64,000 nt of DNA, from positions 1 through 64,000 of the forward strand of contig CADCIH010000003.1 of assembly GCA_902801465.1 (NCBI GenBank). Direction: 5' to 3'. A program made the position numbers and the translations under genes. Below, in pieces: positions 12,754-53,503 of the stretch (positions are counted from its first letter, which is position 1; every line of letters begins with the position of its first letter). Origin of the DNA: an uncultured Bacteroidia bacterium. GTDB lineage: Bacteria; Bacteroidota; Bacteroidia; Bacteroidales; F082. The notes under the pieces were generated by a model, which searched no databases, was not told the DNA's origin, and saw nothing but the letters and a program-made list of their open reading frames with translations.

Positions 12754-13104
12754 ATGGAAGAAACCAACCCATTAAAAGAAACGGTCATCAGCGTGCTGAA
12801 AACCATCTACGACCCGGAAATCCCGATCGATATCTGGACCTTGCACCTGATTTATGGCGTCGACGTGGACGAAGAAGGCAACGTAAAGATTGTGATGACG
12901 GTAACCGCACCCAACTGCCCTGTGGCCGAAGTGCTTCCAGCCGAGGTTAAAAGCCGCATCGAGGCCATCATGGGCGTGAAATCCGTCGACGTAGAGCTGA
13001 CCTTCGATCCCGTGTGGGACATCAGCATGCTCTCCGACGAAGCCAAAGCTGAATTAGGTTTGGATGGCGATTACAATTACTCCGCCTCGGACTTTCTGTA
13101 TTAA
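12754..13104 (+). CDS. SufT-like DUF59 (MIP18 family) Fe-S assembly protein
   Basis: A 116-aa protein of the MIP18/DUF59 family. DPEIPIDIWTLHLIYGVDV near the N-terminus and TAPNCPVAEVLP with the conserved Cys-Pro are diagnostic. The C-terminal EAKAELGLDG tail is typical of Bacteroidota members. It assists Fe-S cluster maturation or transfer. It faces the sufBCDSE operon and shares the repeat hairpin at 13105-13164 with sufE as a convergent terminator, so its location next to suf supports the assignment. Confidence 0.88.
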   Translation: MEETNPLKETVISVLKTIYDPEIPIDIWTLHLIYGVDVDEEGNVKIVMTVTAPNCPVAEVLPAEVKSRIEAIMGVKSVDVELTFDPVWDISMLSDEAKAELGLDGDYNYSASDFLY

Positions 13105-13164
13105 ACGGAGAACGGAGAACGGAAAGTGGAAAGTTTTCCGTTTTCCGTTTTCCGTTTTCAGTTC
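13105..13164. repeat. Heptad repeat hairpin (GGAAAAC type) between convergent genes
   Basis: Tandem ACGGAGA/ACGGAAA units on the left and TTTTCCG units on the right fold into a long hairpin. The right end includes the sufE stop codon (TGA at 13158-13160, minus strand). A likely bidirectional terminator. Confidence 0.8.
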
Positions 13165-13571
13165 TTCAAGGCTTCGGCGTAAAGCATCATCTGCTTCAAC
13201 ATCGAGACCAGACCATTGGAACGGGTCGGGCTTAGATGCTCCTTTAGACCGATTTTATCAAGGAACGAGAGGTCGGCAGCCAAAATATCCTGCGGGGTCT
13301 GGCCGGAGAACACTTTGATTAATAAATAAATAATGCCTTTGGTGATGACCGCATCGCTGTCGGCGGTGAAATAGACCTTGCCGTCCTTGAGCTCGGCATG
13401 GAGCCAAACACGCGACTGGCATCCATTGATCAAATACTGGTCGTTACGGTATTGTTCGTCAATGATGGGGCACTCCTTCCCCATTTCGATCAGCATGGCG
13501 TAACGGTCCATCCAATCGTCAAACATCGAGAAATCCTCAACGATGCTATCTTGTATTTCTTTTATTGTCAT
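13158..13571 (-). CDS. sufE: Cysteine desulfuration protein SufE
   Basis: 137 aa. SufE stimulates SufS and accepts its persulfide sulfur. The conserved acceptor Cys lies in LINGCQSRVW (Cys51). FDDWMDRYAMLIEMG and SNGLVSML match the family. It is the last gene of the suf operon, 34 nt after sufS, with a REP-like element in the gap. The last codons and the stop overlap a heptad repeat. Confidence 0.92.
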   Translation of the reverse strand: MTIKEIQDSIVEDFSMFDDWMDRYAMLIEMGKECPIIDEQYRNDQYLINGCQSRVWLHAELKDGKVYFTADSDAVITKGIIYLLIKVFSGQTPQDILAADLSFLDKIGLKEHLSPTRSNGLVSMLKQMMLYAEALKN

Positions 13572-13604: not shown

Positions 13605-14855
13605 TTACCTTAACATATTTGCCGCACGTGTCACTGCCTTCACCAAAACATCAACCTCTTCCAAGGTGTTATATAAAGCAAACGAGGCACGCACCGTGCC
13701 AGGGATGCCAAAACGGGTCATCACAGGCTCAGCGCAATGGTGACCAGTGCGGACGGCCACGCCCATCTTGTCAATAATCGTTCCAAGGTCGTATGGATGG
13801 ATGCCGTCGATGATGAAACTCACCAAACCACTGCGTTCAGGCGCTTGGCCGATGAAACGCATGCCCTCTATGGCGGAGAGCTTCTCCACAGCGGTCTTTA
13901 CCAGCAGGGTTTCATGTTCTTCCACCGCTTTGCGGTCTAGATTCTCTAGAAACTGTATGGCCGTCTCCAAACCCAAGGCGGCACCCACGTTGGGCGTACC
14001 AGCCTCAAACTTAAAGGGAAGCTTGTTGAACGTGGTCCTCTCAAAGCTTACCGTGTCCACCATCTCGCCTCCAAACTGGTAAGGGGACATCTTCTCCAGC
14101 CACTCGGTCTTGCCATACAAACAGCCGATGCCCATGGGAGCGTACATCTTATGGCCTGAAAACACAAAGAAGTCGCAGTCCAAGTCCTGCACATCAATAG
14201 GCAAGTGAGCAATCGATTGGGCACCATCGACCACCGTAATCGCACCATATTGGTGGGCCATACGAATCATCTCCTTCACGGGATTCACCGTTCCGAGGGT
14301 GTTCGACACATGGGCCATGGCCACAATCTGCGGACCTTGCTTCAACAAGTCTTCGTAGGCTTGCAGATCGAGCACACCGTTGTCGTCCATCGGAGCCACG
14401 AGAAGCTGTCCACCACATCGCTGCACCATCTGCTGCCAAGGGACAAGGTTGGAGTGGTGCTCCATGGCGGTAATTAGAACGGAAAACGGAAAACGGAAAA
14501 CGGAAAATGGCAAACTCTCCGTTTTCCGTTTTCCGTTTTCCGTTCCAAGCGACGTTGCCAACAAATTCAACGATTCGGTGGTTCCTCTCGTGAAAACGAT
14601 TTCATGGGTTTCCTTGGCGTTGATGAAACGAGCCACTGTCTGACGGGCGTGTTCGTAGGCCTCTGTGGCCATCTGGCTGAGGTAATGAACCCCACGATGG
14701 ATGTTGCAGTTCTCGTGCAGGTAATAGTCGCGCTCGCGCTCGATCACACAAAGGGGTTTCTGGGTGGTCGCAGCATTGTCGAGATACACCAATGGCTTGC
14801 CATAGACCTGTTGGTCCAAAACGGGGAACTGCTTTCTTATTTCGTTAATATCCAT
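13605..14855 (-). CDS. sufS: Cysteine desulfurase SufS with repeat-encoded insertion
   Basis: 416 aa, PLP-dependent class V aminotransferase fold. It releases sulfur from cysteine for Fe-S clusters. DNAATTQKP, the PLP lysine in FSGHKMYAPMG, and the catalytic Cys in RTGHHCAEP are present. Residues about 104-127 are foreign: they are encoded by a perfect heptad-repeat hairpin (14477-14546) and read TENGKRKTESLPFSVFRFPF before ITAMEHHSNLVPW resumes. In homologues this stretch is a short loop ending in GDE-I/V. The frame is kept and the active site is intact, so the enzyme may still work. Confidence 0.92.
   Translation of the reverse strand: MDINEIRKQFPVLDQQVYGKPLVYLDNAATTQKPLCVIERERDYYLHENCNIHRGVHYLSQMATEAYEHARQTVARFINAKETHEIVFTRGTTESLNLLATSLGTENGKRKTESLPFSVFRFPFSVLITAMEHHSNLVPWQQMVQRCGGQLLVAPMDDNGVLDLQAYEDLLKQGPQIVAMAHVSNTLGTVNPVKEMIRMAHQYGAITVVDGAQSIAHLPIDVQDLDCDFFVFSGHKMYAPMGIGCLYGKTEWLEKMSPYQFGGEMVDTVSFERTTFNKLPFKFEAGTPNVGAALGLETAIQFLENLDRKAVEEHETLLVKTAVEKLSAIEGMRFIGQAPERSGLVSFIIDGIHPYDLGTIIDKMGVAVRTGHHCAEPVMTRFGIPGTVRASFALYNTLEEVDVLVKAVTRAANMLR
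14477..14546. repeat. Heptad repeat palindrome inside sufS
   Basis: A perfect 28-bp inverted repeat (14477-14504 and 14518-14545) made of GGAAAAC units on one arm and GTTTTCC units on the other, with a 13-nt loop. It lies wholly within the sufS coding frame, preserves that frame and has no stop codon. Confidence 0.95.
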
Positions 14856-14863
14856 TTCAAATC

Positions 14864-14907
14864 CCCAAGGCGTCGCCTTGGGCTATTAGCTATTGCCCCT
14901 GCGGGGC
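14864..14907. repeat. REP-like double palindrome at sufS/sufD junction
   Basis: CCCAAGGCG-T-CGCCTTGGG (14864-14882) and GCCCC-TGC-GGGGC (14895-14907) are joined by TATTAGCTATT. The second palindrome encodes the last residues of SufD (APQG before the stop at 14890-14892). Confidence 0.85.
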
Positions 14908-15729
14908 GGTTAATCCTTTGGGGTTTTTGCAATGTAAAACGCAACGGTCGCAACTCGAGAGCTCACCACGCAGACGGCGTTTGATCATATCCTCGATGGT
15001 GTCGCGCAGACTGTCGATCTTAATGTGGTTGCTGACCTCAGCGGCAAAGGCATACATCAGCAACATTCGGGCATTGGCTTGGCTGATGCCGCGCTGCCGC
15101 ATATAGAACATGGCCTCCTGGTCGAGCTGTCCCGTAGAGGTGCCGTGGGAGCACTTCACGTCATCGGCGTAGATCTCCAAGAAAGGCTTGGTGTCGATCT
15201 TGGCGGTGGAAGTCAGGATGATGTTGGCGTTGTTCTGCTGGGCATCGGTCTTCTGCGCCCCGGGAGCCACATACACATGGCCATTGAACACGGCCGAGGC
15301 CTCATCGTCGATGATGCCCTTGAAGCGGGTGTCGCTTGTGCAATGCGGCACGTTGTGGTTGATCTTCAGGTAGTTCTCCACATGCTGTTTCCCGTCCACC
15401 AGATAGAGGCCGTACACCTGGGTCTCGCAGCCCTCGCCATCCACATCGACGGTGATGTTGTTGCGCAAGTCACCGGCATTGAAGCTGATGACCACGAAAT
15501 GCACCCTGCTGTCGCGTTCCTGATGGATGTGGATGTGGGTCTTCAAACCCGTCGTCTCATCGAGGTTTTGGATGCGGTACATCTCCAACGAGGCATTCTC
15601 CTTGACCACGATGTCGCAATGCTCCTCGTTGGCCTGGAGATGCTCGGTGTCGTCCGACAACACAAGCTGCCGATACTGCCCGCTTTCGACTACGATATTG
15701 TTTTCAAGAATGTCCATCTCAGCACGCAT
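14890..15729 (-). CDS. sufD: Fe-S assembly scaffold protein SufD, short form
   Basis: About 279 aa from ATG 15729, which overlaps the sufC stop (TAATG) and has AAGGAG upstream. A longer reading from 15753 is possible. It contains the beta-helix core of SufB/SufD and the conserved C-terminal pattern DVKCSHGTSTGQLDQEAMFY and RQRGISQANARMLL. It forms the SufBC2D scaffold complex. Typical SufD proteins are 400-450 aa, so about 150 N-terminal residues are missing; no frameshifted extra coding sequence is present because sufC lies directly upstream. The C-terminus is encoded by a REP element. Confidence 0.9.
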   Translation of the reverse strand: MRAEMDILENNIVVESGQYRQLVLSDDTEHLQANEEHCDIVVKENASLEMYRIQNLDETTGLKTHIHIHQERDSRVHFVVISFNAGDLRNNITVDVDGEGCETQVYGLYLVDGKQHVENYLKINHNVPHCTSDTRFKGIIDDEASAVFNGHVYVAPGAQKTDAQQNNANIILTSTAKIDTKPFLEIYADDVKCSHGTSTGQLDQEAMFYMRQRGISQANARMLLMYAFAAEVSNHIKIDSLRDTIEDMIKRRLRGELSSCDRCVLHCKNPKGLTAPQGQ

Positions 15730-16481: not shown

Positions 16482-16489
16482 GTTATTTT

Positions 16490-16529
16490 ATGTTTTAACT
16501 TTTATCTTTTAACTTTTATCTTTTATCTA
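16490..16529. repeat. Heptad repeat (AGATAAA type), sufB-sufC gap
   Basis: Read on the minus strand, AGATAAA and AGTTAAA units alternate over about 40 bp. The array begins with the TAG stop codon of sufB (16527-16529) and reaches almost to the sufC ATG. Confidence 0.8.
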
Positions 16530-23268: not shown

Positions 23269-23334
23269 GCTAAAAACGGAGAACTGAAAACGGAAAACAT
23301 CAGTTCTCCGTTTTCCGTTTTCAGTTTTCAGCTT
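23269..23334. repeat. Heptad repeat hairpin between pepT and secA
   Basis: ACGGAGAACTGAAAACGGAA on the left arm pairs with TTCCGTTTTCAGTTTTCAG-type sequence on the right. The array supplies the secA stop codon (23321-23323) and its penultimate Asn. A probable bidirectional terminator. Confidence 0.8.
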
Positions 23335-28537: not shown

Positions 28538-28570
28538 AGATAAAAGATAAGAGATAAAAGATAAAAGTTA
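28538..28570. repeat. Heptad repeat (AGATAAA type) between Nudix gene and coaD
   Basis: TAGATAAAAGATAAGAGATA and two further units fill the gap immediately upstream of the coaD ATG, on the plus-strand reading. Confidence 0.8.
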
Positions 28571-28573
28571 TTT

Positions 28574-28615
28574 TTCAGTTTTCAGTTTTCCACTTTCCGT
28601 TTTCAGTTTTCAGTT
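28574..28615. repeat. Heptad repeat (GGAAAAC/TGAAAAC type) at Nudix gene 3' end
   Basis: Read on the minus strand, units such as ACTGAAA, ACGGAAA and GTGGAAA encode the last residues LKTENGKWKTEN of the Nudix protein and the TGA stop. The array abuts the AGATAAA array. Confidence 0.85.
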
Positions 28616-29261: not shown

Positions 29262-29909
29262 ATGAAATATGACGACTCCGCGCTGATTTTAGCGACGCAT
29301 CTTTTACAAATCAAAGCCGTAAAACTTAGTCCCAAACAACCCTTCACCTGGGCATCGGGGTTGCACAGCCCTATCTATTGCGACAACCGTGTCACTCTGT
29401 CGTATCCCATGGTAAGGACCTTTATCCGCCAGCAGTTTGTGGAACAGATGATGCTGCACTATGGCAAACCTGACGTCATCGCCGGTGTCGCCACCGGAGG
29501 CATCGCCCAAGGCGCTTTGGTGGCCCAAGAGCTGGGACTGCCTTTCTGCTATGTGCGTTCCGAGAAAAAATCGCACGGCATGCAAAATCAGATCGAAGGC
29601 ATCATCGAGTCTGGCCAGTCGGTAATCGTCATCGAGGACTTGGTATCCACTGGCAAGTCGAGCCTTCTTGCTGTCGACGCCTTGCGCGAAGTCGGAGCCA
29701 ACGCGAAAGGCATGCTGGCCATCTTCACCTACCAACTGCCAGTTGCCGAGGAGAACTTCAAGGCAAAGGAATGCTCCCTGTACACCCTCACCAACTACGA
29801 GACCTTGATCTACAAGGCCATCGAAGAAAAATACATCAGCGAGGAAGATCAACATTCGCTACTGGAATGGCGGAAGGATCCGCAGGCATGGAGCGATAAG
29901 CAAAGATAA
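29262..29909 (+). CDS. pyrE: Orotate phosphoribosyltransferase
   Basis: 215 aa. Joins orotate and PRPP to make OMP in pyrimidine synthesis. GLHSPIYCDNR and the PRPP-binding motif VIVIEDLVSTGKSS are present, together with YVRSEKKSHGMQNQIEG, the flexible catalytic loop. Its TAA stop lies in the first unit of the AGATAAA array. Promoter as noted; monocistronic. Confidence 0.96.
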   Translation: MKYDDSALILATHLLQIKAVKLSPKQPFTWASGLHSPIYCDNRVTLSYPMVRTFIRQQFVEQMMLHYGKPDVIAGVATGGIAQGALVAQELGLPFCYVRSEKKSHGMQNQIEGIIESGQSVIVIEDLVSTGKSSLLAVDALREVGANAKGMLAIFTYQLPVAEENFKAKECSLYTLTNYETLIYKAIEEKYISEEDQHSLLEWRKDPQAWSDKQR

Positions 29910-29940
29910 AAGATAAAAGATAAAAGATAAAAGATAAAAG
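29904..29940. repeat. Heptad repeat (AGATAAA x5) at pyrE 3' end
   Basis: Five perfect tandem AGATAAA units. The first supplies the last Arg codon (AGA) and TAA stop of pyrE. Confidence 0.9.
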
Positions 29941-45334: not shown

Positions 45335-46042
45335 ATGAAATACAACAGAGTTCTTCTAAAACTAAGCGGCGAAGCCCTCATGGGCAGCCAACAATATGGC
45401 ATCGACCCGCAACGACTCAACGAATATGCCGATGAGATCATCGAAGCCGCCAAGACTGGCGTTCAGATCGGCATCGTCATCGGCGGAGGCAACATCTTCC
45501 GTGGACTGCAAGGCGCTTCCAAAGGCATGGACCGCATCCAAGGCGACTACATGGGCATGCTAGCCACCGTCATCAACTCGATGGCAATGCAAAGCACCCT
45601 CCAAGGCAAAGGCCAAAAAGCCACCTTGCTCTCAGGCTTATATATCGACCGCATCGCCGACACCATGAGCTCCGCCAAAGCCATCCGCCTGCTCGAAGAA
45701 GGCCACATCGTCATCATGGGCGCCGGCACTGGCAACCCCTTCTTCACCACCGACACCGGCAGCGCCCTCCGCGCCGTGGAGATCAAAGCCGACATCATCC
45801 TCAAAGGCACCCGCGTGGATGGCATCTATACCGCCGACCCCGAGAAAGACCCCACCGCCACCAAGTTCGACCATATCACCTACGACGAAGCCTACCAACG
45901 CAACCTCAAAGTGATGGACATGACCGCCTTCACCATGTGCAAGGAAAACGACATGCCCATGTATGTGTTCGACATGAACACGAAAGGAAATCTGCTCAAG
46001 GTCCTCAAGGGAGAAGAGATCGGAACTTTGGTAACGAAATAA
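45335..46042 (+). CDS. pyrH: UMP kinase
   Basis: 235 aa. Amino-acid-kinase-fold UMP kinase: LLKLSGEALMG, VIGGGNIFRG, GAGTGNPFFTTDTGSALRA and KGTRVDGIYTADPEKDP are diagnostic. Phosphorylates UMP to UDP in the cytosol. Six nucleotides follow the protease stop. It is followed by heptad repeats, then the second glycosyltransferase, and then frr, recalling the common pyrH-frr pairing with an inserted gene. Confidence 0.97.
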   Translation: MKYNRVLLKLSGEALMGSQQYGIDPQRLNEYADEIIEAAKTGVQIGIVIGGGNIFRGLQGASKGMDRIQGDYMGMLATVINSMAMQSTLQGKGQKATLLSGLYIDRIADTMSSAKAIRLLEEGHIVIMGAGTGNPFFTTDTGSALRAVEIKADIILKGTRVDGIYTADPEKDPTATKFDHITYDEAYQRNLKVMDMTAFTMCKENDMPMYVFDMNTKGNLLKVLKGEEIGTLVTK

Positions 46043-46077
46043 CGGAAAACGGAAAGTGGAAAACGGAAAACGGAAAG
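46041..46077. repeat. Heptad repeat (GGAAAAC type) between pyrH and GT gene
   Basis: Five GGAAAAC/GGAAAGT units directly follow the pyrH stop. The only early start codon of the next gene, GTG 46056, is inside the array. Confidence 0.8.
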
Positions 46078-47960
46078 ATAGGAAGCATCATCTTCGGGCG
46101 ACGAGAAACAAAACCAGCCTCAAGTTGGATTACGTCCTATTGGGCGTAATCCTCCTTGTAGCTGCGGTGTTGCGTCTTTGGAAACTCGGACAGGTACCTT
46201 TCATGCACGACGAGTTCAGCGCGCTTTTCAGGTTGAGGTTCGACAACTTCCATGACCTCATCCAATATGGCGTCACCGAAGGCGACTCGCATCCGGCTGG
46301 TGTGCAGGTATTCCTCTATTATTGGACCAAACTGGTCGGCTGGAACGAGATGTGGGTAAAGCTCCCCTTCGCTCTCATGGGCATCGCTTCCGTCTTTCTG
46401 ATCTATGTCATCGGCAAGCAATGGTTCAACCGCAAGACCGGTCTGCTGGCCGCGGCCTTCTTTGCCGTTAGCCAACTCACCGTATTCTACAGCCAACTGG
46501 CACGTCCCTACGCCCCGGGACTTTTCTTCGTGCTGCTGATGACTTTCTTTTGGAACAAGATCCTTTTCGGTCCAAAGAAACCTTCTGCCGGCATCTGCAT
46601 CGGCTTCGCTGTCAGTGCCTGCTTGGCTGCTTTGGCGCACAACTTCTCGGCAGCACAGGCAGGATTGATTTTTCTCACGGGCTTGTTCTTCCTGAAGAAA
46701 GAACGCCGCCTCGCCTATTGGCTCGGCGGCATCGGCGCCGTAGTCCTCTACGCCCCGCATCTCCCCGTATTCTATTACCAGACCTTCGTCAACGGCGGCA
46801 TCGGCGGCTGGCTCGCCAAACCCAAGAGCACCTTCATCATCGACTTCCTGCAGTACACAACGAACTACGCCCCCCTCTTCATGTTTGCCATGGGCGTTGT
46901 CATCATCCTTCCCTTCCTTCTGCAGAAACCCGAAAAACGAGCCTACCCTGTCCGCTGGGCAGCCGTCGTTTGGTTCGTGGTCAACTTCGCTGTTGCCTTC
47001 ATTTATTCACTGCTCCGCGAACCCATCATCCAATATAGCACCCTCATCTTCTGCTACCCCTTCCTCGTGCTCATGCTCCTTTCGTTCCACCGAAACAACA
47101 GCATGACCATGACACAGACCGTGATCGCCGTACTGGCCATCCTCTTCATCGGAGCCAGCTCGCTCATCACCAACCGTCAACACTACGACTTGATGTACCA
47201 TCAAGGTTACGACCAGATCGCCCAACGGATGCAAGAGGACAATGATGGCAATACAGACATCCGTTTCGCCACCGCCACCCTCAAGACCCAGTTCCCGGAG
47301 TTCTATCAAGCCCAGACCACAGTGACCCAACGCGCCATCTTCGACGAGGAGAACAACAACGTTGGCGAATTCCGCCTATGGCTGGATTCGAACGACACCG
47401 AGATGCTAGGGTTCGGATGGACCGATTACGTCAGTCCTGCATGGGAAACGCAAGCCGTAGCCTGTTATCCTTGGATGGTTCACGAAGACACATGGTTCAC
47501 TTCCCGTTATCTGACTCTGTCACGCGACTCCGTGCCTGGAGCGATCCGGCTCCTGACGCCTTTGACAGAAAAACCCTATGTTTTCGAGCAGTTTGAATGG
47601 GGAGTTCCACAATATATCTATGGCGACTCTCTCGACAAAGAAACCGACCTCGTCGGCGTTACAGCCACAGTTGAATCTACCGACACCATCGCAGGCTGTG
47701 TCCTCGTCATGGAAATCCACGATGCCGCAAGCGATTCCTTGTTGTTCTGGTACGGTGGCAACAACAGCGACCTGTTGCTACCCGGAACCAACCATCTGGC
47801 CACCGCCGTCAGGTTCAACAGCGAAGACTTTCCTGCCCAGGGAAAAGTCATCAAAACATATATCTGGAACCAGAAGCGAGGCACGATAGTTGCAAAACGG
47901 TTCGACTACTATTGCACCCGGTACAATCCTCGTTTGGCAGGTTTGTATCAACCATTGTAA
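46056..47960 (+). CDS. Membrane glycosyltransferase (GT-C, PMT/ArnT-like), 634 aa
   Basis: Multi-spanning protein: LDYVLLGVILLVAAVLRLW, then PFMHDEFSALFRLRFDN with the catalytic Asp-Glu, and about ten more helices. The C-terminal 240 residues form a soluble periplasmic domain. Likely uses a polyprenyl-phosphate sugar. The start is uncertain: the frame opens after TAA 46032-46034, GTG 46056 is within the heptad repeat (giving MENGKRKD) and the next candidate is TTG 46125 just before the first helix. It sits between pyrH and frr, which are neighbours in many genomes. Confidence 0.85.
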   Translation: MENGKRKDRKHHLRATRNKTSLKLDYVLLGVILLVAAVLRLWKLGQVPFMHDEFSALFRLRFDNFHDLIQYGVTEGDSHPAGVQVFLYYWTKLVGWNEMWVKLPFALMGIASVFLIYVIGKQWFNRKTGLLAAAFFAVSQLTVFYSQLARPYAPGLFFVLLMTFFWNKILFGPKKPSAGICIGFAVSACLAALAHNFSAAQAGLIFLTGLFFLKKERRLAYWLGGIGAVVLYAPHLPVFYYQTFVNGGIGGWLAKPKSTFIIDFLQYTTNYAPLFMFAMGVVIILPFLLQKPEKRAYPVRWAAVVWFVVNFAVAFIYSLLREPIIQYSTLIFCYPFLVLMLLSFHRNNSMTMTQTVIAVLAILFIGASSLITNRQHYDLMYHQGYDQIAQRMQEDNDGNTDIRFATATLKTQFPEFYQAQTTVTQRAIFDEENNNVGEFRLWLDSNDTEMLGFGWTDYVSPAWETQAVACYPWMVHEDTWFTSRYLTLSRDSVPGAIRLLTPLTEKPYVFEQFEWGVPQYIYGDSLDKETDLVGVTATVESTDTIAGCVLVMEIHDAASDSLLFWYGGNNSDLLLPGTNHLATAVRFNSEDFPAQGKVIKTYIWNQKRGTIVAKRFDYYCTRYNPRLAGLYQPL

Positions 47961-47996: not shown

Positions 47997-48560
47997 ATGA
48001 CAGACGAATCCCAATTTGTATTAGACGAAGCCACTGAGAGCATGGACAACACCATCAAGCACCTGGAGCATGAGTTTCAGGGCATCAGGGCAGGCAAAGC
48101 CAGTCCAGCCATGCTGAACGGCGTAATGGTTGAATATTATGGTGCCACTGTGCCCATCGAGCAAACCGCCAACATCGGCTGCCCTGATGCACGCATGATC
48201 GTGGTGGTACCGTTCGACAAGAGCGCACTCGGCAACATCGCCAAGGCCATCCTTAACGCCAATCTGGGTTTCAACCCGATGAACAACGGCGAGTTGCTTC
48301 GTATCAGCGTGCCTCCGTTGACCGAGGAACGCCGCCGCGAGCTGGTGAAACGCACCAAGAACGCCGCCGAAGAAGCCAAGGTGGGCATCCGCAGCATACG
48401 TCGCAGCGCCAACGATGAAGCCAAGAAACTCGAGAAAGACACCATCTCCGAGGACGAGTCAAAACTCCTTCAGGAAGAGATTCAGAAACTCACCGACAAG
48501 TATATCAAGAAGATTGACGATCTGACCGAGCTTAAGTCCAAGGACATACTTACGGTTTAA
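47997..48560 (+). CDS. frr: Ribosome recycling factor
   Basis: 187 aa, standard length. HLEHEFQGIRAGKASPAMLNG, IRISVPPLTEERRRELVK-type segment (here LLRISVPPLTEERRRELVKR) and the C-terminal helix pattern are diagnostic. Splits post-termination ribosomes with EF-G. Own promoter and an AATTAAG-repeat terminator after it. Confidence 0.97.
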   Translation: MTDESQFVLDEATESMDNTIKHLEHEFQGIRAGKASPAMLNGVMVEYYGATVPIEQTANIGCPDARMIVVVPFDKSALGNIAKAILNANLGFNPMNNGELLRISVPPLTEERRRELVKRTKNAAEEAKVGIRSIRRSANDEAKKLEKDTISEDESKLLQEEIQKLTDKYIKKIDDLTELKSKDILTV

Positions 48561-48624
48561 TTAAGAATTAAGAATTAAGAATTAAGAATTTAGAGGGAGT
48601 TGTAGCATTCGCTCCCTCTAAATT
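48561..48624. terminator. AATTAAG heptad array plus 13-bp hairpin between frr and ddl
   Basis: Four AATTAAG-type units follow the frr stop. AATTTAGAGGGAG (48587-48599) then pairs with CTCCCTCTAAATT (48612-48624). It serves both convergent genes. Confidence 0.75.
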
Positions 48625-52414: not shown

Positions 52415-53457
52415 GCGAGCAACTTCTTGAAGACCTCCTGGAAAACGAGAACACCGAAGAGGAAAGCGGTGAGCTATACGAGCATATCCGTATCGTGGTA
52501 GACAAAGGCCAGGCCCAGGAGCGCATCGACACCTTCCTGACCAACCACATCCAGAACATCTCGCGCAACCGCGTGCAGAACGCTGCCAAGGCAGGCAACA
52601 TCCTCGTCAACGAAAAGGCAGTGAAGTCGAACTACAAGGTAAAGCCTGGCGACGTCATCTCCATCGTATTCAGCTACCCACCCCGCGAGGTCAACATCAC
52701 GCCCCAGGAAACACCTTTGAATATCGTCTATGAAGACTCCGACCTCATCGTCATCAACAAACAGGCGGGATTGGTAGTCCACCCTGGCCATGGCAACTTC
52801 GAGGGAACCCTGCTTCACGGATTGGCATGGCATTTCCAACAAACCAACCAACCTGTGGAGAACAAGTTCGGGTATCTGGTACACCGCATCGACAAGGACA
52901 CTACCGGACTGATGATCGTTGCCAAAAACGAGACCGCACAAGCCATCCTCGCCCATCAGTTCTTCGAACACTCAATCCACCGCCGTTACCACGCCTTGGT
53001 TTGGGGCGACTTCACTGAAGACGAAGGACGCATCGAAGGCAACATCGGCCGCAGCCCCACCGACCGCCGCAAGATGATGGTCTATCCCAACGGCGACCAT
53101 GGAAAAGAAGCCGTCACCCACTGGAAAGTGCTGGAACGCTTCGGCTACGTCACCTTGAACGAATACCGCCTTGAGACAGGACGCACACACCAAATCCGCG
53201 TCCACTCACAATATATCGGCCACCCTCTCTTCAACGACGCTACCTACGGCGGAGACCAAATCCTCAAAGGCACTACCTTCTCAAAGTACCGCCAGTTTAT
53301 CGAAAACTGTTTCAAGCTGATGCCTCGTCACGCCCTTCACGCCAAGGAACTGGGATTTGTCCACCCCACCACAAAAAAAGAGATGCTCTTCACCAGCGAA
53401 CTGCCTGACGACATGAGCGCCGTGCTCGACAAGTGGAGAAAGTATGGGAGGAGTTAA
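52411..53457 (+). CDS. rluD: RluA/RluD-family 23S rRNA pseudouridine synthase
   Basis: 348 aa. An N-terminal S4 RNA-binding domain (ERIDTFLTNHIQNISRNRV, then KAGNILVNEKAVKSNYKV) and the catalytic Asp in YLVHRIDKDTTGLMIVAKN. ETGRTHQIRVHSQYIGHPL is the second motif. Probably RluD (large subunit helix 69), though RluC cannot be excluded from sequence alone. ATGA overlap with the upstream T9SS gene. Confidence 0.9.
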   Translation: MSEQLLEDLLENENTEEESGELYEHIRIVVDKGQAQERIDTFLTNHIQNISRNRVQNAAKAGNILVNEKAVKSNYKVKPGDVISIVFSYPPREVNITPQETPLNIVYEDSDLIVINKQAGLVVHPGHGNFEGTLLHGLAWHFQQTNQPVENKFGYLVHRIDKDTTGLMIVAKNETAQAILAHQFFEHSIHRRYHALVWGDFTEDEGRIEGNIGRSPTDRRKMMVYPNGDHGKEAVTHWKVLERFGYVTLNEYRLETGRTHQIRVHSQYIGHPLFNDATYGGDQILKGTTFSKYRQFIENCFKLMPRHALHAKELGFVHPTTKKEMLFTSELPDDMSAVLDKWRKYGRS

Positions 53458-53503
53458 GATAAAAGATAAAAGATAAAAGTTAAGAGATAAAAGTTAGGAG
53501 ATA
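53455..53503. repeat. Heptad repeat (AGATAAA type) between rluD and hldD
   Basis: AGATAAA x3, then AGTTAAG, AGATAAA and AGTTAGG, just after the rluD stop. The convergent hldD gene ends inside it; its last residues LTFIS and the TAA are repeat-encoded. Confidence 0.85.

Follow-up and report, generated by a model that had tools for sequence, protein, structure and literature searches.

A heptad-repeat palindrome in frame within sufS and the repeated occupation of the same SufS loop by unrelated dispersed repeats

How does the coding sequence of an essential-type enzyme come to hold a palindrome built from seven-nucleotide repeats, and does that palindrome belong to the gene or to a repeat family dispersed through the genome? 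The question is raised by the window analysed here, a stretch of 64,000 nucleotides from an uncultured gut bacterium of the Bacteroidia (genome G000), whose minus strand carries sufB, sufC, sufD, sufS and a sufE-like gene, and in which heptad arrays of similar type are found both between genes and inside sufS (Table 1).

Table 1. Position of the suf genes, the heptad arrays and the parts of the sufS palindrome in the window
Feature	Position	Strand	Remarks
sufS, cysteine desulfurase, 416 aa	13605..14855	-	TIGR01979 SufS family, 562 bits, cut-off 475
sufE-like gene after sufS	13158..13571	-	best NCBIfam match SufE PRK09296, 103 bits, below cut-off of 160
Palindromic array, GGAAAAC heptad family	13103..13163		intergenic, between convergent ORF 12754-13104 (+) and sufE-like gene
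Palindromic array, GGAAAAC heptad family	23278..23331		3' end of 1099-codon open stretch, convergent gap
AACGGAA tandem array	46041..46076		gap between ORFs 45335-46042 and 46056-47960, both +
Palindrome left arm, + strand	14477..14504		GGAAAAC heptads, perfect 28 bp
Palindrome spacer	14505..14517		between the two arms
Palindrome right arm	14518..14545		GTTTTCC heptads, perfect 28 bp

The sufS insert is a 67-bp palindrome of GGAAAAC/GTTTTCC heptads, read in frame and covering about residues 104-126 of the protein. A sequence-only reading of the window had described a perfect 28-bp inverted repeat that keeps the frame and resembles the intergenic arrays nearby, and both points hold: the perfect arms lie within longer ones of 31 nt (14474-14504 and 14518-14548), matching at 97% around a spacer of 13 nt, the ORF is open throughout, and the first and third arrays of Table 1 are of similar type. 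GGAAAAC contains no stop codon in any of the six frames and, since its period is 7, its repeat gives one peptide cycle in every frame, GKRKTEN in one direction and FSVFRFP in the other. Other heptad words, including TTTTATC, TTTTCAG, AATTAAG and similar, occur in the window at 16486-16525, 28538-28615, 29902-29940, 48559-48594 and 53456-53493, one of these arrays being situated in the gap between sufB and sufC.

The word is also abundant outside the window. The pattern GGAAAACGGAAAACGGAAAAC, with up to three mismatches, has 350 (overlapping) matches in G000 against none for the reversed control pattern, and 464 kb of this genome contains 59 period-7 segments, forming 49 array loci, against none in one mononucleotide shuffle. 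An assembly error would have explained the insert away, and several genomes are indeed incomplete or contaminated, such as G020 with its two sufS copies. Such an error is very unlikely, because the separate genome G008 carries the same insert; with the frame kept in the loops read and parallels in Mur ligase and ValS, the probability of an assembly or binning artefact is negligible, and the palindrome in sufS is confirmed as a real observation.

The enzyme that bears the insert retains the invariant residues of the alignments, among them H133, K236 and C374, which have a catalytic role in E. coli SufS; structures of its H123A and C364A variants are among the solved matches listed. Outside the loop, dN/dS is 0.03-0.07 in all eight pairs computed, and the core with its invariant residues is, judging from these comparisons, under strong purifying selection. 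No near relative seems to back up SufS in G000, since one full-length enzyme was the only such match when 30 of 116 candidates were scored, the other 20 matches being short repeat translations; SufS is presumably essential in this genome.

Modelling with the insert in place gave an AlphaFold2 structure (32 sequences) with a pLDDT of 89.8 and a query TM of 0.90-0.95 against solved SufS (50 structures listed). The insert is placed between the helix 92-111 and the strand 125-129, and residues 108-119, within it, are the sole run with pLDDT below 50. The repeat is thereby predicted to occupy a floppy surface loop, with the core fold kept. The model of a relative with a CTCTCAA-coded loop (L127) has a pLDDT of 91.2, with loop blocks at 53-77. 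The sequence-only reading held that the palindrome adds about 23 residues, which is right for the length encoded by the repeat but not for the net gain of only about 14: the loops of the repeat-free G110 and G069 are 14 residues shorter than that of G000, and the standard 'GD' loop of the genus is 12 residues shorter, so that native loop residues have been replaced. The effect of the insert on SufS is most likely near neutral.

Alignment with relatives places the insert in G000 and, reversed, in G008, and finds it missing from G110 and G069. Of the 99 genomes of the genus, 91 yielded sufS, giving 94 sequences for comparison. The GD form accounts for 50 loops, is kept in 49 of the 91 genomes and never holds a repeat motif (0 of 50), whereas 36 of the 44 non-GD loops, from 35 genomes, contain a recognised dispersed repeat motif, the motifs and thresholds having been chosen after the loops had been read. 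Five of the remaining non-GD loops are short and plain (G033, G069, G110 and two copies in G116) and three are longer with no repeat assigned (G029, G067 and G088). At least six repeat groups, counted as unrelated, occupy this loop: GGAAAAC-like, CTCTCAA-like and CTTCAAA heptads, the CGTC repeat (its reverse motif allowed 8 mismatches in 23, and G004 and G013 were placed by that motif alone), GAGACGCAT-like palindromes and CCCCC hairpins. A seventh group, GGTGAGCCTGTCGAACC, is nested within the CTCTCAA arrays of G019 and G092, and an apparent flank of the CGTC repeat, judged by eye, comes after a CCCCC hairpin in G022 and G071. CTCTCAA is the commonest occupant. The CTCTCAA, TCTCACC and CTTCAAA words are stop-free in the direction used in sufS and have stops in all frames of the other; in sufS they are oriented in the stop-free direction only, and the reading frame is intact in the loops read. 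Outside the genus, where the best 80 of 587 relatives were used, the same measure gave a length of 19-20 residues for 77 of 78 loops, the exception being L166 with 30. The L004 stretch is contained letter for letter in L126, from a Bacteroidales MAG of yak reticulum, and that of L057 in L127, from an uncultured Bacteroidales MAG.

In this genus, dispersed repeats of unrelated groups occupy one SufS loop repeatedly and in frame. The scale of this had not been foreseen by the earlier reading, with unrelated families in the same loop genus-wide, other proteins hit and native residues replaced. The probable explanation is that dispersed, stop-free repeats colonise permissive surface loops and that the palindrome in sufS represents one copy, in coding position, of a heptad-palindrome repeat dispersed through the genome. 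It could instead be that the hairpin or its peptide is selected, either tuning suf expression through an mRNA hairpin or attenuation before sufE or giving a useful loop, and is re-acquired for that reason. The palindrome folds as RNA into a very stable hairpin (-66 kcal/mol, z -8.6), a terminator-like site is predicted at it on the coding strand of sufS, with which a regulatory effect would fit, and repeats recur at this one site in 35 genomes. However, the occupants have neither sequence, length nor folding in common, those built from CTCTCAA, TCTCACC and CTTCAAA being one-direction arrays; more than half of the genomes retain the GD loop; charged (TENGKRKTE), hydrophobic (FSVFRFPFSV) and STLNSQL peptides all occur; and similar kinds of repeat are found in Mur ligase, ValS and other unrelated genes. 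Selection of the hairpin or peptide is therefore an unlikely cause of the pattern. Rfam matches at the palindrome (E down to 3.6e-5, far under the gathering scores) are to eukaryotic and viral miRNA and snoRNA hairpin models, and were taken as chance hairpin matches.

Occupation of the loop has changed often. On a codon tree built without the loop, the repeat family changes at least 28-32 times and presence or absence 14-16 times, as counted on about 200 of 1000 bootstrap trees with classes assigned by hand (G029 as CTCTCAA) and on 90 of the 94 rows (dropped were two duplicates, a partial row and one that could not be parsed). The corresponding numbers from a quick protein tree with 91 rows were 32 and 15. 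These parsimony counts were rejected as numbers of insertions, as loop alleles seem to have been exchanged: CTCTCAA loops that are almost identical recur in scattered species (G021, G091, G102, G066, G111 and G003), which suggests such exchange between species. The sister of G000 on the sufS tree, G110 (support 100/95), is missing the palindrome.

For three of the families, presence in the loop was compared with abundance in the genome. Matches to the GGAAAAC 21-mer on both strands number 428 in G008, 350 in G000, 138 in G020, 117 in G088, 60 in G010 and 52 in G110, with 21 or fewer in each of the remaining 93 genomes; G020, G088 and G110 are rich in GGAAAAC and have none in sufS. The GAGACGCAT palindrome is most frequent in its three sufS carriers (G016 39, G105 31 and G032 30), followed by G028 with 28, and the sufS carriers of the CGTC repeat have 61, 46, 36, 29, 27, 27, 17 and 4 copies, the top non-carriers having 51 and 44. 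Copy number was higher in genomes carrying the family in sufS for all three families (Mann-Whitney, carriers against rest: GGAAAAC p 0.0012, 3 carriers; GAGACGCAT p 0.0005, 3 carriers; CGTC p 0.00013, 8 carriers), in tests of 91 genomes with the sufS copies subtracted, kinship ignored and the variant carriers G075, G004 and G013 counted as non-carriers. Carriers with low copy number also exist (G074 with 18 hits, G104 with 4). The tests cover these three families; for TCTCAAC the reversed-pattern control is uninformative, since reversal gives almost the same cycle. The reversed control word of GGAAAAC (CAAAAGG units) has 117 matches in G009 and the forward word none, so another heptad word is abundant in that genome.

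Comparison of G000 with G008 shows how the element itself may have behaved. Their palindromes differ at 10 of 67 positions as they lie and at 1 when one of them is turned round, and the 16-mer AAATGGCAAACTCTCC (14505-14520) has a single exact copy in G000 and another in G008, the two being opposite in orientation relative to the gene, with no exact copy in five other genomes and copies with 1-2 mismatches in all seven. The 60-bp flanks differ at 13 and 11 sites, and the synonymous distance across sufS is about 1.0. Because the palindrome is flipped and near-identical amid diverged flanks and a diverged gene, either the element was gained by two lineages, each in its own orientation, or a copy inherited by both was inverted in one and has since been conserved to an unusual degree. 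The earlier claim that the repeat family is mobile or expanding is borne out as regards gain and expansion, the insert being absent from the nearest relative G110 and reversed in G008 and the family far commoner in G000 and G008 than in most relatives; enzyme-driven movement did not find the same support.

Arm polarity is fixed in G000. In the sample of this genome, 15 neighbouring arm pairs run from purine to pyrimidine and none in the opposite sense, 11 of the 15 share a complementary 9-mer, and 12 further neighbour pairs are like-strand pieces. This polarity would fit either a process that copies terminator-like units whole or fold-back synthesis that starts only from purine arrays.

Identical insert edges in G000 and G008, with opposite orientation and far greater likeness than the flanks, together with the presence of several families at one site, would also be expected if an enzyme or a feature of replication directed repeats to the sufS position and to a Mur ligase loop. 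Against such direction, no common landing motif was seen in the loops by eye, several families at one site are hard to explain by a single enzyme, and heptads are found in many other genes; it is improbable as the general cause, even if the frequent hits on the SufS and Mur ligase loops could reflect targeting and not just tolerance.

The distribution of arrays over the genome was studied in 464 kb of G000 (19% of 2.46 Mb) and by pattern counts. Arrays of stop-free words lie inside coding ORFs in 10 of 32 cases and arrays of words with a stop in 0 of 17 (Fisher p 0.009), a difference that is to some extent inherent in the comparison. With another, simple gene caller, 16 of the 49 arrays fall within genes, all of them of stop-free words and none of words with a stop in this sample. 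Divergent gaps are under-represented among the 33 arrays outside genes (1 array, with 48 of the 233 gaps divergent; p 0.014) and convergent gaps over-represented (10 arrays, with 30 of the 233 gaps convergent; p 0.016). At 17 loci around the best G000 matches, two of them the window arrays, 11 open frames were read and 10 scanned by Pfam, which revealed arrays inside proteins with Mur ligase domains, a DcuC-type carrier, RNase H1 (in the linker), an ETF domain, a C69 peptidase and ValS. A DUF4292 protein has its array in the N-terminal part, and in further open frames the array precedes the likely start, or there is no family match. In the DUF4292 protein (L103, G000:C4), heptad arms code most of the N-terminal stretch ahead of 'TLLLVFLAFSCSPKKK', and repeat DNA may form part of its lipoprotein signal peptide.

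The Mur ligase, by reading MurE-like in G000, provides a second recurrent site: 12 of 30 genomes have heptads at one loop, 17 have 8 native residues there and G004 is unassigned, the words by eye being GGAAAAC, GGAAAGT, CAACTGC, CAACTCC, CTCTCAA and one composite. Among 27 ValS sequences aligned at the site of the array, G000 and G088 have two arms around a native-like segment, and their right arms, although equal in length, are written in different words (TTTCCGT against TTTCCAC). The segment between the arms in these two genomes (L226 and L227) is unlike the other aligned sequences, which hints that it was swapped along with the arms. That one Mur ligase loop holds GGAAAAC, GGAAAGT or CTCTCAA depending on the species, and one ValS arm either of two words, is the basis for a more speculative reading of low probability, that a dedicated directional process writes a genome-specific 7-nt word as purine-arm-first hairpins, with the word later changed in place and essential proteins carrying the current word.

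It has been proposed that heptamers, the commonest long simple repeats in many bacteria, arise by polymerase slippage (PMC4679880, in the portion accessible), and unit numbers vary here too, as would follow if chance heptad seeds had been extended in place with no dispersal. Slippage, however, makes neither inverted arms nor one word repeated in hundreds of locations, the word is specific to a genome, and the CGTC, GAGACGCAT and CCCCC palindromes of the same loop are not tandem repeats, so that this origin is very unlikely.

The colonisation of permissive loops by dispersed, stop-free repeats would proceed as follows. Repeats would land or be copied at many places in the genome, the survivors being stop-free, frame-keeping copies in a permissive loop, and the SufS loop would trap whichever repeat is active in the lineage, its alleles later being replaced, nested and probably exchanged between species. 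With less confidence, the heptad palindrome may be spread by copying or strand switching, as a unit whose purine arm always leads, and may do so independently of the one Y1 transposase detected in the genome. The genus offers a replicated natural experiment, in which the loop of an essential-type enzyme has been rewritten by unrelated repeats in about 35 of 91 genomes, with the Mur ligase as a further case; the question of whether selfish repeats supply protein sequence therefore becomes directly testable, and the sites are defined at which the spread, word and orientation of a heptad repeat can be followed.

Part of this is known from other systems. Rickettsia palindromic elements (RPE) are dispersed palindromic repeats found in frame in conserved genes, with 19 reading frames described, an RPE-bearing Gmk reported active with altered substrate affinity, and sizes of 105-146 bp with 12-bp terminal inverted repeats (Delihas 2007, PMC2229807, as far as the available text goes). 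The comparison with RPE drawn by the sequence-only reading is sound, the sufS palindrome being a copy of a dispersed family, in frame, in an essential-type enzyme, with other in-frame copies in conserved genes (Mur ligase, ValS, the RNase H1 linker and others). It differs from RPE as described in being a 67-bp palindrome of tandem heptads, and in that unrelated families succeed each other at one loop. GTAG/CGTC-tagged REPs are short palindromes that also occur inside known genes, in dimers or groups coding 20-30 residues, and different REPs lie at about the same recB site in two Xanthomonas species (PMC3733652, accessible part). A CGTC-type repeat, absent from the window but present in sufS of about ten relatives within the genus, resembles these intragenic CGTC-tagged REPs, CGTC standing at one end of CGTCATTGCGAGGAACGAAGCAA. 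Unlike REPs, the 67-bp palindrome of the window is built as a heptad array and contains neither the GTAG nor the CGTC tag; the CGTC in its left flank consists of native codons and is present in the insert-free G069.

Dispersed heptamers have been reported as GGGAATC in Xanthomonas and GGGGAYT in Nostoc (PMC4692102) and as TAACTGA in Beggiatoaceae (PMC4679880), and the G000 arrays are like them in having tandem 7-nt units at many sites and genome-specific words. Where the published heptamers are direct arrays over-represented in non-coding DNA, according to the sections of both papers that are available, the G000 heptads form inverted pairs of fixed polarity (15 against 0), with 16 of 49 arrays inside genes and 33 outside gene calls. 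Long inverted repeats in functional protein genes are described for Nematomorpha mitochondria, both arms coding conserved protein (PMC6649704, in part); the sufS arms differ in coding a replaceable loop and belonging to a dispersed family. Coding RPE and REPs, dispersed heptamers and different REPs at one site (recB) are thus known already, whereas a coding insert made of a heptad palindrome, and the capture of a single enzyme loop by several repeat families in succession genus-wide, seem to be new. A search of open literature turned up no report of heptad palindromes lying in frame in Bacteroidales, nor of DUF559 associated with palindromes, a result that does not prove absence.

A RAYT was considered as the mover of the heptads and set aside, since the sole Y1 transposase detected in G000 (Y1_Tnp; L125, G000:C1:251819-252163) is surrounded by palindromes of CCCAGGGCGTTGCCCTGGG type, by reading another family. 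GTAG REPs are characterised by a Y1 tyrosine transposase with the same repeat on its flanks, an arrangement not seen for the heptads. A palindrome similar to this type lies in the sufD-sufS gap of the window (14864-14908), where it matches Rfam Acido-Lenti-1 with 31.5 bits, below the gathering score of 37.

A different association was seen for the CCCCC hairpins. In valS of G022 (L249/L293, G022:C80), a DUF559 domain (PF04480, 115.5 bits) is inserted in frame at a ValS loop where the other aligned sequences are short, with CCCCCTC-type hairpins at its DNA edges. Across nine strong DUF559 loci (L292-L297, L299, L300 and L302, three weak matches having been left out), 13 strict CCCCC-type hairpins occur in the 7.8 kb beside the domain, at five of the nine loci and with 6 of the 13 in one array, compared with 0 in the remaining 17.4 kb of these loci and 3 in 52.4 kb from loci elsewhere in the genus. 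By analogy with RAYT and REP, a partnership between DUF559 and these palindromes is possible.
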